Shown here in pieces: positions 25,264 through 31,196 of a stretch of 47,672 nt of DNA. The number at the start of each line of letters is the position of its first letter. Position 1 is the stretch's first letter. Below the pieces are notes generated by a model. That model was not told the origin of the DNA. It did not search any database and worked only from the letters and a program-made list of their open reading frames with translations. Source of the stretch: Clostridiaceae bacterium (lineage in GTDB: Bacteria; Bacillota; Clostridia; Oscillospirales; Acutalibacteraceae); the NCBI GenBank assembly GCA_016282855.1, contig JAEELT010000028.1:1-47672 (forward strand), written 5' to 3'. Made by a program: the position numbers and the translations under genes.

Positions 25264-26196
25264 TCAATCGGTGAAAAGCGCGGTTGAATAATATCTGTCA
25301 CCGCTGTCCGGAAGAAGGGCGACTATTACCTTGCCTTTGTTTTCGGGGCGCTTAGCAAGCTGAATTGCTCCGAAGAGAGCGGCCCCGGATGAAATACCGA
25401 CGGATATTCCCTCTTTTTTCGCGAGAAGTTTCGCAGTATCAAAAGCATCCTGATTGGAAGCGGTAAAGATTTCGTCATAAACCGAGGTGTTGAGTACATC
25501 GGGCACAAATCCTGCGCCGATACCCTGAATCTTATGGCTGCCCGCTCTGCCCTGCGAAAGCACAGGCGAATCCTCGGGCTCGAGGGCAACCACCTTCACA
25601 GCGGGGTTTTTCTCCTTGAGGTATTCACCTGTACCCGTAACGGTGCCGCCGGTACCTACGCCGGCGATAAACACATCAACTCTGCCGTCGGTATCATTCC
25701 AGATTTCGGGGCCTGTTGTCGCTTTGTGAACCGCGGGGTTTGCGGGGTTTACAAACTGGCCGGGGATAAAGCCGCCGGGGATTTCCTTCTCAAGCTCCTT
25801 TGCCTTTTCTATAGCGCCCTTCATACCCTTTGCGCCCTCTGTGAGCACAAGCTCCGCGCCGTAGGCCTTGAGTATGTTTCTTCTCTCAACACTCATCGTT
25901 TCGGGCATTGTAAGAATAATACGATAGCCCTTGGAAGCCGCTATGGATGCGAGACCGATTCCGGTATTTCCGCTGGTAGGCTCTATGATAACCGAGCCCT
26001 CTTTCAGCAGGCCCTTTGCCTCGGCATCCTCTATCATCGCCTTTGCTATTCTGTCTTTTACGCTGCCTGCCGGATTGAAATACTCAAGCTTCACAAGAAC
26101 TGTTGCCTCAAGGCCAAGCTCTTTTTCTATATTTGTGACCTCAATAAGAGGGGTATTGCCTATAAGCTCAGAGGCTCCTTTATATATTTTTGACAT
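25264..26196 (-). CDS. cysK: Cysteine synthase (O-acetylserine sulfhydrylase)
   Basis: PLP enzyme making cysteine from O-acetylserine and sulfide. 310 residues, the usual size. Cofactor Lys47 lies in NPAGSVKDR; the substrate loop TSGNTG is at 76-81; the phosphate loop GVGTGGTVTGTG and the C-terminal LLPDSGDRYYST are typical of CysK/CysM. AAGGAGAT precedes the ATG. It follows metY by 13 bases and shares its attenuator-controlled promoter, so both sulfide-fixing enzymes are made together. The neighbouring iscS is a consumer of the cysteine formed. Confidence 0.97.
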   Translation of the reverse strand: MSKIYKGASELIGNTPLIEVTNIEKELGLEATVLVKLEYFNPAGSVKDRIAKAMIEDAEAKGLLKEGSVIIEPTSGNTGIGLASIAASKGYRIILTMPETMSVERRNILKAYGAELVLTEGAKGMKGAIEKAKELEKEIPGGFIPGQFVNPANPAVHKATTGPEIWNDTDGRVDVFIAGVGTGGTVTGTGEYLKEKNPAVKVVALEPEDSPVLSQGRAGSHKIQGIGAGFVPDVLNTSVYDEIFTASNQDAFDTAKLLAKKEGISVGISSGAALFGAIQLAKRPENKGKVIVALLPDSGDRYYSTALFTD

Positions 26197-26209: not shown

Positions 26210-27493
26210 TTATCTTATTGCCGCAAAGCCTTTTTCAAGGTCCGCGATTATATCGTCAATATGCTCCGTGCCGATTGAAAGACGGATTGTATTCTGCTTT
26301 ATGCCCTGATCTGCAAGCTCTTCATCCGAGAGCTGGGAATGTGTGGTGGATGCCGGGTGAATCACAAGGCTCTTGACATCCGCAACATTTGCGAGCAGTG
26401 AAAAAATGCTGAGATTATCAATAAACTTCCACGCCTCTTCCCTGCCGCCTTTGATTTCAAAGGTGAATATTGAAGCGCCGCCGTTGGGGAAATACTTTCT
26501 GTAAAGGGCGTTATCCGGATGATCGGGAAGAGAGGGATGGTTGACCTTCTCAACAAGCGGATGACTTGAAAGATAATCAACAACCTTTTTTGTGTTTTCG
26601 GCGTGCCTTTCAAGGCGAAGAGAAAGCGTTTCAACCCCCTGCAGAAGAAGGAAGGCGTTGAACGGGGAGATTGCGGCACCGGTGTCTCTGAGAAGAATTG
26701 CTCTGATATAAGTGACAAACGCGGCCGGGCCGGCAACATCATAAAACGAAACACCGTGATAGCTCGGGTTCGCCTCTGCTATGTTGGGATATTTGCCGCT
26801 TGCCTTCCAGTTGAATTTGCCCGACTCAACTATGATGCCGCCGAGCGTTGTGCCGTGACCGCCGATGAATTTTGTGGCGGAATGCACAACTATATCAGCG
26901 CCGTGCTCAATAGGTCTGATAAGGTACGGCGTGCCGAATGTGTTGTCAACCACTACGGGAATACCATGCCTGTGAGCTATTTGCGCAACAGCGTCAATAT
27001 CGGGAATATCGCTGTTGGGATTGCCGAGAGTTTCAAGGTAAACAGCGCGGGTGTTTTCTCTGATTGCTCCCTCAATCTGCGAGAGATCGTGGGCGTCAAC
27101 AAAAGTTGTTTCTATGCCGTACTGCGGAAGAGTATGAGAAAGCAGATTGAAGCTGCCGCCGTAAATTGTCTTCTGAGCGACTATGTGACCGCCGTTTGCG
27201 GCAAGAGCTTCAATAGTGTATGTAATCGCCGCCGCGCCGGATGCGAGGGCCAGAGAAGCGCTGCCGCCCTCAAGAGCCGCAAGACGCTTTTCAAGCACAT
27301 CCTGGGTAGTGTTTGTAAGCCTGCCGTAAATGTTGCCGGGGTCCGCAAGGCCGAAACGGTCGGCGGCGTGCTTGCTGTTATGGAAAACATATGAGGTGGT
27401 CTGATAAATGGGGACTGCTCTTGAATCGGTTGCGGGGTCAGCCTGTTCCTGACCTACGTGGAGCTGAAGGGTCTCAAATCTGTAGTTACTCAT
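26210..27493 (-). CDS. metY: O-acetylhomoserine/O-acetylserine sulfhydrylase
   Basis: PLP enzyme of the Cys/Met gamma family that adds sulfide to O-acetylhomoserine, giving homocysteine for methionine synthesis. 427 residues. N-terminus RFETLQLHVGQEQADPATDS, cofactor aspartate in VVDNTFGTP (Asp183) and Lys208 in HSATKFIGGHGT are as expected; the length of about 430 and the insertion after the Lys separate MetY from the shorter cystathionine enzymes. AAGGAG precedes the ATG. The 245 bases upstream form a leader with a Cys-rich small ORF and a terminator, so expression should respond to cysteine supply. Some family members accept O-acetylserine, so a direct share in cysteine synthesis is possible. 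Confidence 0.95.
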   Translation of the reverse strand: MSNYRFETLQLHVGQEQADPATDSRAVPIYQTTSYVFHNSKHAADRFGLADPGNIYGRLTNTTQDVLEKRLAALEGGSASLALASGAAAITYTIEALAANGGHIVAQKTIYGGSFNLLSHTLPQYGIETTFVDAHDLSQIEGAIRENTRAVYLETLGNPNSDIPDIDAVAQIAHRHGIPVVVDNTFGTPYLIRPIEHGADIVVHSATKFIGGHGTTLGGIIVESGKFNWKASGKYPNIAEANPSYHGVSFYDVAGPAAFVTYIRAILLRDTGAAISPFNAFLLLQGVETLSLRLERHAENTKKVVDYLSSHPLVEKVNHPSLPDHPDNALYRKYFPNGGASIFTFEIKGGREEAWKFIDNLSIFSLLANVADVKSLVIHPASTTHSQLSDEELADQGIKQNTIRLSIGTEHIDDIIADLEKGFAAIR

Positions 27494-27553
27494 TTTATTT
27501 TTCTCCTTTTCAGATGATAGTTATTTGTCGTTTGATATGTTCGGTTTTACATT

Positions 27554-27585
27554 AAAAAAACCGGGGGCTTCTTCAAAGCTCCCGG
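27554..27585 (-). terminator. Attenuator terminator before metY
   Basis: Minus-strand stem CCGGGAGCTT / AAGCCCCCGG (nine of ten pairs), 5-base loop, followed by seven T. It lies between the leader ORF and metY, so RNA polymerase must pass it to express metY-cysK. Its 5' arm overlaps the antiterminator arm 27579-27590. Confidence 0.85.
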
Positions 27586-27683
27586 GCAAACGGCATAAAT
27601 GACGCGAGTTTCAACATCGCTCCATACTGCAGAGGCGCGGCAAAACACCACCGTGCGCCCCGGCCGTTATTTTTGCCCGGGAG
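27579..27683 (-). promoter_or_regulatory. Antiterminator and competing hairpin of the cysteine attenuator
   Basis: Minus-strand CTCCCGGGCAAA (27672-27683, codons 19-23 of the leader ORF) is exactly complementary over 12 bases to TTTGCCCGGGAG (27579-27590). The second copy overlaps the 5' arm of the terminator at 27554-27585, so the two structures exclude each other. A third segment, TTTTGCC (27639-27645), can pair with GGCAAAA (27671-27677) and would hide the first arm after the ribosome has passed. The first arm begins 14 bases beyond the start of the third Cys codon, about where a stalled ribosome's leading edge would be. The structure is seen; the mechanism is inferred. Confidence 0.7.
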
Positions 27684-27739
27684 TACAGCATTCGACACCA
27701 CATACAGGTACAATATTCAGTATTGAGTGATTTATACAT
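27611..27739 (-). CDS. Cysteine-rich leader peptide upstream of metY-cysK
   Basis: A 42-residue ORF with an excellent ribosome site (AAAGGAGG, 7 bases before the ATG), starting about 26 bases after the predicted transcript start. Residues 9-16 read YCTCMWCR: Cys at 10, 12 and 15, with Cys also at 37 and 42. Methionines at 13 and 17 add Met codons. It precedes a terminator and two genes of cysteine and methionine synthesis. The peptide has no fold or membrane features, and its likely job is to let the ribosome sense charged Cys-tRNA. No database family is known to me for it. It lies in the stretch 27494-27890, which otherwise holds only the promoter and the terminator. Confidence 0.75.
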   Translation of the reverse strand: MYKSLNTEYCTCMWCRMLYSRAKITAGAHGGVLPRLCSMERC

Positions 27740-27771
27740 GCCGGCACCTCCTTTTTCAATGTTATGCTGTG

Positions 27772-27805
27772 AGTATATCACCATTTACCTACCGTGTCAA
27801 TAGGT
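27772..27805 (-). promoter_or_regulatory. Promoter and Rrf2-type operator of the cys leader-metY-cysK operon
   Basis: Minus-strand TTGACA (27795-27800) and TATACT (27772-27777), spacer 17 bases, extended TGA. The -35 is centred in the inverted repeat ACCTATTGACACGGTAGGT (27787-27805), half-sites ACCTA and TAGGT spaced by 9. Almost the same sequence overlaps the iscS promoter, and a one-mismatch version overlaps the promoter ahead of the Rrf2 gene at 30792. Confidence 0.75.
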
Positions 27806-27890
27806 TTTACTAAAAATTTCCAAAAAAGTTTTTCGTTTGTTGCCGGCAGACCGTAACCGGGGCGATTAAATCCGGCGCAGTATAAGAAAA

Positions 27891-28268
27891 TCAGTCGCCC
27901 TTTCCTGCGCGGTAATTCTCCAGGGCATTTTGGATTGCCTCCTGCGCGAGTACCGAACAGTGCATCTTATAATCGGGGAGGCCGTCGAGCGCCTCAGCCA
28001 CCGCCTTGTTTGTAAGCTCCAGCGCCTCGGAAACGGGTTTGCCCTTTATCATTTCAGTTGCCATTGAGCTTGACGCTATGGCGCTGCCGCATCCGAAAGT
28101 TTCAAACTTAACGTCCGTTATTATATCGTTTTCTATTTTCATATACATTTTCATTATATCTCCGCATTTTGCGTTGCCGACTTCACCAACGGCATCGGCA
28201 TCCTCGATTATGCCCACATTGCGCGGATGAAGAAAATGATCCATTACTTTTTCGCTGTATAGTGCCAT
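27891..28268 (-). CDS. iscU: Fe-S cluster scaffold protein (IscU/NifU-like)
   Basis: Scaffold on which [2Fe-2S] or [4Fe-4S] clusters are built with sulfur from IscS. 125 residues, normal length. The three ligand cysteines are present: Cys35 in NAKCGD (with Asp37), Cys60 in FGCGSAIASSS and Cys104 in KMHCSVL. GGAGA precedes the ATG. It starts 12 bases after iscS. The clostridial iscS-iscU pair serves Fe-S enzymes such as the hydrogenase encoded at 33635. No clear terminator separates it from the downstream cys promoter, so some read-through into the cys leader is possible. Confidence 0.96.
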   Translation of the reverse strand: MALYSEKVMDHFLHPRNVGIIEDADAVGEVGNAKCGDIMKMYMKIENDIITDVKFETFGCGSAIASSSMATEMIKGKPVSEALELTNKAVAEALDGLPDYKMHCSVLAQEAIQNALENYRAGKGD

Positions 28269-30791: not shown

Positions 30792-31196
30792 ATGATTTCA
30801 ACAAAAGGGCGTTACGCGATACGCGTTCTGATTGATCTTGCGGAAAACGATAACGGCGGCTGTATTCCCCTCAAGGATATTGCCGCGAGGCAGGAAATAT
30901 CAAAAAAATACCTTGAAATAATCGTCAAGGATATGGTCGAGGGCGGTCTGCTTATAGGAGCGAGCGGAAAAGGCGGCGGTTATAAGCTCTGCCGCAAGCC
31001 GGAGGATTACATTATCGGCGAGGTTATAGAGCTTATGGAAGGGCCTCTTTCTTCCGTAGCGTGCCTTGCGGGCGACTCAAACGAATGTCCGAGAAAGGAC
31101 TCCTGCCGCACCCTGCCCATGTGGGAAGAATACGATAAAATGGTTCACGACTTTTTCTACGGGAAAAGGCTCAGCGACCTTATTGAAAAAGGCTGA
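30792..31196 (+). CDS. Rrf2/IscR-family transcriptional regulator
   Basis: 134 residues. The N-terminal winged helix starts with MISTKGRYAIRVLIDLA and continues through ISKKYLEIIVKDMVEGGLL and ASGKGGGYKL, as in IscR/CymR. Cys91, Cys99 and Cys105 (C-x7-C-x5-C, in VACLAGDSNECPRKDSC) correspond to the Fe-S ligands of IscR, which are spaced C-x5-C-x5-C. CymR proteins mostly lack these, so an Fe-S-sensing type is more likely. The three ACCTA-N9-TAGGT sites at 27787, 29514 and 30538 are its obvious candidate targets. AGGAG precedes the ATG. Confidence 0.9.
   Translation: MISTKGRYAIRVLIDLAENDNGGCIPLKDIAARQEISKKYLEIIVKDMVEGGLLIGASGKGGGYKLCRKPEDYIIGEVIELMEGPLSSVACLAGDSNECPRKDSCRTLPMWEEYDKMVHDFFYGKRLSDLIEKG

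Follow-up and report, generated by a model that had tools for sequence, protein, structure and literature searches.

Background

In ribosome-mediated attenuators such as the trp, his and ilv leaders, a short leader peptide contains codons for the amino acid of the pathway, and an antiterminator and a terminator compete for one arm of the RNA. In translation attenuation of the ermC type a stalled leader ribosome frees the downstream site, and TnaC is an arrest peptide that responds to tryptophan. Methionine and cysteine genes of Bacillota are usually controlled by SAM riboswitches, T-boxes or CymR. The nearest described counterparts of the locus treated here are actinobacterial leader ORFs with runs of Cys codons, located upstream of cys operons in Mycobacterium and Propionibacterium acnes and of cbs in Bifidobacterium longum (PMC1262725); cysteine-responsive attenuators of mycobacteria have been reported (as cited in PMC13236596). 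Histidine leaders of Bacilli demonstrate that ribosome-mediated attenuators exist in Firmicutes (PMC2965389), and CliM is a clostridial arrest peptide that monitors membrane insertion (PMC13183943).

The region upstream of metY-cysK in a Clostridiaceae bacterium (Acutalibacteraceae, contig JAEELT010000028.1) is compared with these systems below. The window is the whole analysed stretch of 47,672 nucleotides, to which all coordinates refer. We regard it as rather probable that the region is a leader-peptide attenuator for sulfur amino-acid supply, responsive to cysteine and perhaps also to methionine.

Organisation of the metY-cysK locus

The minus strand of the window holds, in this order, a promoter with a dyad, the leader ORF, a terminator, metY and cysK. 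The promoter (27772..27800, TTGACA-17 nt-TATACT) agrees with the consensus at 11 of 12 positions, and promoter-like elements are also readable in several genus relatives. The genes 3' of the leader are those named in the first-pass annotation, i.e. metY (26210..27493, O-acetylhomoserine aminocarboxypropyltransferase/cysteine synthase family, TIGR01326, 626 bits) and cysK (25264..26196, cysteine synthase A, TIGR01139, 453 bits), both above the cut-offs of their models. Upstream of the leader lie an IscU/NifU-type gene (NifU_N), an IscS/NifS-type gene (Aminotran_5) and, on the plus strand, the gene of an Rrf2-family regulator (30792..31196, PF02082), to which the IscR and CymR models both match, each below its own cut-off.

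A CCTA-N9-TAGG dyad (27788..27804, minus strand) is placed over the -35 box. Among relatives, 42 of 138 leaders have CCTA-N6..11-TAGG within the preceding 110 nt, with a spacer of 9 in every one (shuffle mean 0.89; 0/114 inside genes), and the dyad frequently encloses TTGACA (CCTATTGACATAGTAGG). The dyad is probably the operator of an Rrf2-type repressor, with the gene at 30792-31196 as the candidate. Control by such a regulator at the promoter only, leader and hairpin being leftovers, would suit the strong dyad and the Rrf2 gene in the window, yet it is extremely improbable, because the dyad pattern is missing in 96 of the 138 and neither the arm covariation nor the peptide conservation reported below would be explained.

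The leader ORF (27611..27739, minus strand) extends from an ATG at 27739-27737 to a TGA at 27613-27611 and encodes 42 residues (MYKSLNTEYCTCMWCRMLYSRAKITAGAHGGVLPRLCSMERC), preceded by an AGGAGG Shine-Dalgarno (SD) sequence at 27747..27752. The 42-codon ORF with its strong ribosome site and the Cys codons at 10 (27712-27710), 12 (27706-27704) and 15 (27697-27695) are read as annotated; these codons (27695..27712) are the putative stalling codons. Directly behind them follows CGA-ATG (Arg16-Met17, 27689..27694), the most conserved element of the family by the codon-open matches described below. Conservation of the ORF, the lack of which in close relatives the annotation would have taken as a refutation, was found in the relatives, where the reading frame around the motif is retained.

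Antiterminator, inner helix and terminator

Arm 1 of the putative antiterminator (27672..27683, minus strand) lies inside codons 19-23 (Y-S-R-A-K) and pairs with arm 3 (27579..27590), which overlaps the 5' arm of an intrinsic terminator (27554..27585). Direct reading verified the exact 12-base complementarity, CTCCCGGGCAAA (27683-27672) being the reverse complement of TTTGCCCGGGAG (27590-27579), as well as the overlap with the terminator (CCGGGAG..CCCCCGG-T7, 27585-27554) and the start of arm 1 at 14 nt past the first base of Cys codon 15. The terminator stem has -14.8 kcal/mol and contains a mismatch; the hairpin was not among the results of an automatic terminator scan. A second, inner helix is formed by AACGGC (27663..27668) and GCCGTT (27589..27594), the latter having two T in common with arm 3. 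The minimum-energy fold places a further hairpin (27632..27661), GGGGCG (27661-27656)/CGCCTC (27637-27632), inside the antiterminator, and similar stems are readable in the alignment of 26 of 40 long forms. The leader was also folded, as had been suggested: the folding energy of its RNA beats 199 of 200 dinucleotide shuffles (z -3.43).

A third segment, TTTTGCC at 27645-27639, had been put forward as a competitor for arm 1. It is present in the window and complementary, but the exact 7-mer occurs in just 1 of 40 long forms, the window copy, so that it looks like chance and is rejected as a conserved competitor. In 24 of the 40, CYGGG or CCGAG at +28 to +45 may serve arm 1 as an alternative partner nearby.

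No Rfam family matches in the window at gathering score, and relaxing the limit to E 1 brings up none within 27450-27900; ten related loci yielded only one tRNA. T-box and SAM riboswitch covariance models have zero matches in the window, and the leader peptides have none in NCBIfam or Pfam. The openly licensed literature accessible to searches with the motif strings and related topics returned no description of the family.

Long-form relatives

With the leader DNA as query, 9 of 60 genomes match, and the core pattern occurs in 10 of 45 genus genomes, the window's own being counted both times. The long-form set comprises 40 loci, window included, picked by a pattern that combines CG[AG]A[TG]G with the arm 1 core and requires T or G to open the pre-R codon; 18 loci judged to be chance matches, frames of more than 160 codons, duplicates and loci offering less than 240 nt past the match were dropped. 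Since the selection pattern contains the arm 1 core, the constancy of this core arises partly by construction. Many source genomes are metagenome assemblies, and two long forms (from G791 and G794) stand outside the class by their kinship label. Matches of a phylum search to YRMLTSRA were considered as distant leaders and rejected: the five fetched are parts of open frames 620 to 662 codons long, which we take to be MnmG, and their location inside such large frames makes them a coincidence. Other three-mismatch matches in unrelated frames were discarded as well.

With G-U counted as a pair, 39 of the 40 long forms have 9 to 14 pairs between arm 1 and arm 3; the exception, L034, retains 6 of 7 core pairs. 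Arm partners elsewhere include CTCCCGGGCATA:TATGCCCGGGAG, CTCCCGGGCTTT:AAAGCCCGGGAG, CTCCCGGACTGC:GCAGTCCGGGAG and AACTCCCGGACAC:GTGTCCGGGAGTT. Over 36 distinct arm pairs, in a register chosen by complementarity and with counts that are of related sequences, not of events, 80.0% of cells are paired (shuffle mean 74.1%, maximum 78.3%) and 53 cells show double changes (shuffle mean 33.6, maximum 51), values that 0 of 1000 shuffles reach in either case; slid registers give 36 to 50% paired. The useful variation lies outside the core, since the terminator also constrains the arm 3 core and the search pattern fixes that of arm 1; arm column 13, for instance, has A-T in 17 and T-A in 11 of the 36. 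The inner helix covaries too, with TATGGC:GCCATA, TCGGAA:TTCCGA, GAGAGCGG:CCGCTTTT and others in place of the AACGGC:GCCGTT of the window, and strands of one locus match each other better than strands exchanged between loci (0 of 5000 permutations as good). The covariation of the arms in relatives, which the annotation had proposed to look for, is thereby borne out. A terminator-like hairpin with a T run, sharing an arm with the antiterminator, is present in 36 of the 40 loci; no such hairpin was recognised in the other 4. By sequence comparison a chance origin of the window arms is excluded, mainly by the relatives.

A Cys codon occurs at most three residues before Arg-Met, i.e. ahead of the first arm, in 38 of the 40 long forms (two are without), a count partly biased by the search, many having been found with a Cys-or-Trp-codon pattern. 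Free of this bias, the fourth position of the motif is Cys and not F in 15 of 17 NFR[FC]GRM leaders with a long xxSR tail vs 10 of 122 others. The expectation of conserved early Cys codons is thus borne out for the presence of Cys near Arg-Met, whereas codon number and exact place vary. In the window genus, ten long forms have lost NFRFG and kept CGA-ATG. One leader (L080, G264) reads CGA AGG (Arg-Arg) where the others have CGA ATG, and its near relative L082 (G127) retains Met.

A wider family of short leaders

The window leader appears to be one variant of a larger and apparently undescribed family. Most leaders found are short, with 18 residues to the end of NFR[FC]GRM, followed by a stop or by a tail that is often Cys-rich, and the majority precede metY or metQ. 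Seven further leaders of the genus, MKLLFECLLRQNFRFGRMRCCF, MKILFGSLLRKNFRFGRM and similar, are located upstream of metY orthologues that were found independently of the leader. All seven possess CGA-ATG and five of them NFRFGRM; the other two read KTRMRCF and FSCFRMCCK, with CGA-ATG kept. Neither arm 1 nor a terminator was seen in these seven. Two metY orthologues of genus relatives (G027 and G016) are without a leader, and for a third (G009) the sequence ends upstream.

The NFR[FC]GRM pattern with CGA is present in 53 of 394 order genomes (reversed control 0), in its strict form in 35 of 169 genera of one order, and in at least 120 stretches of named genomes; among the matches listed, most titles name Oscillospiraceae, Ruminococcaceae, Ruminococcus or unplaced Clostridia, and a small number name other phyla. 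With the Arg codon left open, 29 matches were obtained in 28 of 245 order genomes (reversed control 3), and all are CGA. The same codon-open pattern matched in 0 of 398 genomes across the phylum (reversed control 8). Against these 29 of 29 CGA codons before Met stands a background of 52 among 1479 Arg codons (3.5%) in the downstream genes.

The set of NFR[FC]GRM leaders consists of 139 sequences, out of the 140 that remained of 150 after near-identical removal; rows with short flanks were dropped. Nine loci judged to be non-leaders were excluded (L132, L148, L158, L159, L175, L176, L183, L187 and L231), among which L159 may be a true leader. As the query contained NFR[FC]G, only the codons outside it and the last Arg test conservation freely. 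The start codon lies 11 codons before N in 129 of the 139 leaders, this position having been tried first in start assignment. Codon 10, outside the query, is Arg in 128 of these 129 (CGN 59, AGR 69, no Ser-type AGY), and codon 8 is Leu in 114 of the 129, by way of all six Leu codons. Synonymous drift at these two codons reflects selection on the peptide in the NFR[FC]GRM leaders, and the family is, judged from its sequences, conserved at both the peptide and the RNA level.

The constancy of CGAATG at the nucleotide level, together with the covarying arms and helix 2, could be taken for a riboswitch-like RNA or a regulator site made of these parts, with an incidental ORF. We consider this quite improbable, given that the conserved codons vary synonymously, with AGR for CGN included, that a start codon is set at a fixed distance before the motif, and that the Rfam searches came out as they did at the leader and the ten related loci. 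CATTC before the metY SD was tried as a pairing partner of CGAATG: it is present in 15 of 82 short forms vs 4.1 expected, yet mostly absent, so that pairing with CATTC does not explain the constancy of CGAATG.

Of the 139 leaders, 34 end directly after GRM (31 with TGA, 3 with TAA), hence without Cys after the motif; TGA in this position (31/34) compares with 31 of 107 stops of downstream genes. Tails of one to eight residues are found in 57 leaders, 56 of them with Cys, and longer tails in 48. Cys amounts to 171 of 815 residues after GRM (up to 12 residues counted) vs 10 of 1406 before NFR. Short forms thus place Cys after R-M, long forms before R-M. One leader (L229) possesses a tandem duplication of the NFRCGRMCCSCSNS segment.

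Fixed peptide length, the nearly invariant Arg at codon 10 in spite of its drifting codons, the exclusive CGA before ATG and the preference for TGA after GRM all suit an arrest peptide, in which nascent NFR[FC]GR-M would stall the ribosome at CGA-ATG on a metabolite (methionine, SAM, cysteine or an acetylhomoserine-type precursor) in the manner of TnaC, the Cys codons being secondary; pure codon attenuators need no such peptide. We nevertheless rate this as rather unlikely. The window genus has lost NFRFG in its ten long and in two of its seven short forms while CGA-ATG remains, and an arrest at R-M would have opposite effects in long and short forms. Moreover, according to the accessible text of PMC10454642, four consecutive CGA codons do not impede translation in Bacillus subtilis. 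Among the observations that count against the attenuator reading that we prefer are the 34 leaders that stop after GRM without Cys, the leaderless metY genes of G027 and G016, the leader L080 without Met, and the long forms with no Cys before R (2 of 40) or no recognised terminator (4 of 40).

Genes downstream of the leaders

A downstream ORF is readable at 133 of 144 places, corresponding to 132 of 143 loci. Named by similarity clusters, of which few members were profile-scanned, these 132 comprise 106 metY-like, 11 MetQ-like and 4 MetN-like genes and 11 others. The latter are L132, L148, L158, L176, L183 and L187 (other phyla or classes), L231, and L141, L159, L236 and L257, in which a leader-like peptide is present. 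At L141 the readable ORF lies far downstream and resembles an amino-acid ABC permease, L236 has weak matches only, and L257 contains an amidohydrolase-like fragment. Among 20 pattern loci with longer flanks, metY follows in 11, metN in 3 and a polar-amino-acid ABC operon in 5, one being a chance match (L084). The permease of the ABC operon at L078 passes the general HEQRo permease model, the substrate-specific models staying below cut-off, so that its substrate is not certain. By these assignments, sulfur or amino-acid uptake operons account for the majority of the downstream genes that were classified.

In 119 downstream genes of at least 200 amino acids, Cys makes up 0.23% and Met 0.50% of residues, the start Met counted, as if these proteins were economising for growth under sulfur shortage. 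Elsewhere in the window's genome (G000, contig C101), a SAM riboswitch (84.8 bits, L292 1501-1597) is located ahead of a gene at 1673-2818, presumably metK; S-box control there coexists with the leader at metY.

Predicted sequestration of the metY Shine-Dalgarno region in short forms

Fold predictions for the short form have the NFRFG codons base-paired to the SD region of metY. Fold tests covered 60 of 82 short forms for shuffles, 73 for pairing location and swaps, and 55 for recoding. The metY SD is less accessible than with shuffled leaders in 54 of 60 and than with synonymously recoded leaders in 45 of 55; over 73 sequences, the 15 nt that encode NFRFG account for 45% of the predicted SD pairing. 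Leader and SD of one locus match each other better than combinations drawn by permutation (0/5000 as good), whereas a per-sequence swap of leader and SD is near even (38/73). Sequestration as in a translation attenuator is thus predicted, with a moderate effect among related sequences. A ribosome waiting at Met or at the next codon would, from its footprint, cover NFRFG, free the metY SD and permit translation, a reading that the placement of the Cys codons supports.

A run of at least five T is present between GRM and metY in 17 of the 82 short forms, where terminators may accordingly exist. A Rho-dependent, tnaC-like short form, in which the stalled ribosome would hide a Rho site in the spacer between leader and metY, seems very improbable: the spacers of the 82 short forms do have C above G (A 42%, T 27%, C 20%, G 11%), but they are mainly A-rich and not C-rich, predicted SD sequestration accounts for the short form without Rho, and the long form of the window is not touched by the proposal.

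Folding with a ribosome and proposed mechanism

Constrained equilibrium folding was performed with the edge of the ribosome footprint assumed at 12 nt past the A site; the pair probability of the antiterminator was used, the printed terminator probability not being a clean measure. When the A site is at Cys 10 the mean antiterminator probability is 0.77, and it is nearly the same (0.74) for Cys 12; it falls to 0.32 for Cys 15 and to 0.001 for Met 17, compared with 0.70 without a ribosome and 0.58 with a ribosome at the stop codon. The first-pass annotation had a ribosome stalled at Cys 15 just leaving arm 1 free; the antiterminator is only partly kept there, and it is Cys 10 and 12 that keep it. 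A stall at these two codons thus corresponds to the ON state and movement onto arm 1 to the OFF state. As the ON fold also dominates without a ribosome or with one at the stop codon, termination would depend on timely translation, i.e. on kinetics, and on a further step that stops arm 1 from pairing again behind the ribosome. A ribosome at Met 17 favours termination in the long form, and long and short forms would thus respond oppositely to a stall at R-M.

The comparison as a whole shows a peptide under selection, a conserved arm 1-arm 3 and inner helix, a terminator that competes for arm 3, and a position upstream of metY-cysK. In the attenuator that we favour, scarce charged Cys-tRNA would make the ribosome wait at a Cys codon just before CGA-ATG. 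The waiting ribosome would leave arm 1 free, the antiterminator would form, and RNA polymerase would read into metY-cysK; with plentiful Cys, the ribosome would travel over arm 1 and the terminator would form. The conserved peptide and the CGA codon probably make the ribosome linger at Arg-Met. With Cys before R-M in long and after it in short forms, a ribosome waiting for Cys would stand at the place required for either output, as one would expect if both forms respond to Cys supply.

More tentatively, and with the odds somewhat against it, NFR[FC]GRM as a nascent peptide and its obligatory CGA before AUG, a codon decoded by an inosine tRNA, may represent a new bacterial sulfur-responsive stalling module that renders one site hypersensitive to the supply of sulfur amino acids. 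Evolution would then have coupled this module to SD release in short forms and to antitermination in long forms, moving the Cys codons across R-M.

At metY and at uptake operons of the Met or Cys type, the leader family would take the place of the usual SAM riboswitch, T-box or CymR, in hosts that are mostly gut bacteria and are known largely from metagenome assemblies. One peptide linked to two RNA outputs offers a natural series in which it is testable how attenuators change their output, and the contrast between the constant CGA and the synonymous drift in the rest of the motif gives a sharp hint of bacterial stalling that is specific to a codon.

Comparison with known systems

In contrast to genes controlled by a SAM riboswitch or T-box, metY in the window is without such an element. 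By its sequence features the window element would work like a leader-peptide attenuator. It resembles the trp, his and ilv attenuators in possessing pathway codons as well as an antiterminator and a terminator that share an arm, and differs from them in its few Cys codons without a long run and in belonging to a family with a conserved peptide and a constant CGA-ATG. The short form resembles the ermC type, as fold predictions pair its leader codons to the downstream SD, which a stalled ribosome would release; its signal, however, would be sulfur amino-acid supply and not an antibiotic. With TnaC and CliM the R-M leaders share, as far as the available descriptions go, a short peptide upstream of a gene regulated in cis; CliM differs in that it monitors membrane insertion, and stalling of the R-M leaders is putative. 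The actinobacterial Cys-run leaders resemble many short forms in the short ORF, the Cys codons near the stop and the lack of an obvious terminator; they belong to another phylum, and the accessible text of the reports describes no FRFGRM peptide or CGA rule for them. Compared with these leaders as described there, the long form of the window adds a covarying antiterminator and a terminator.
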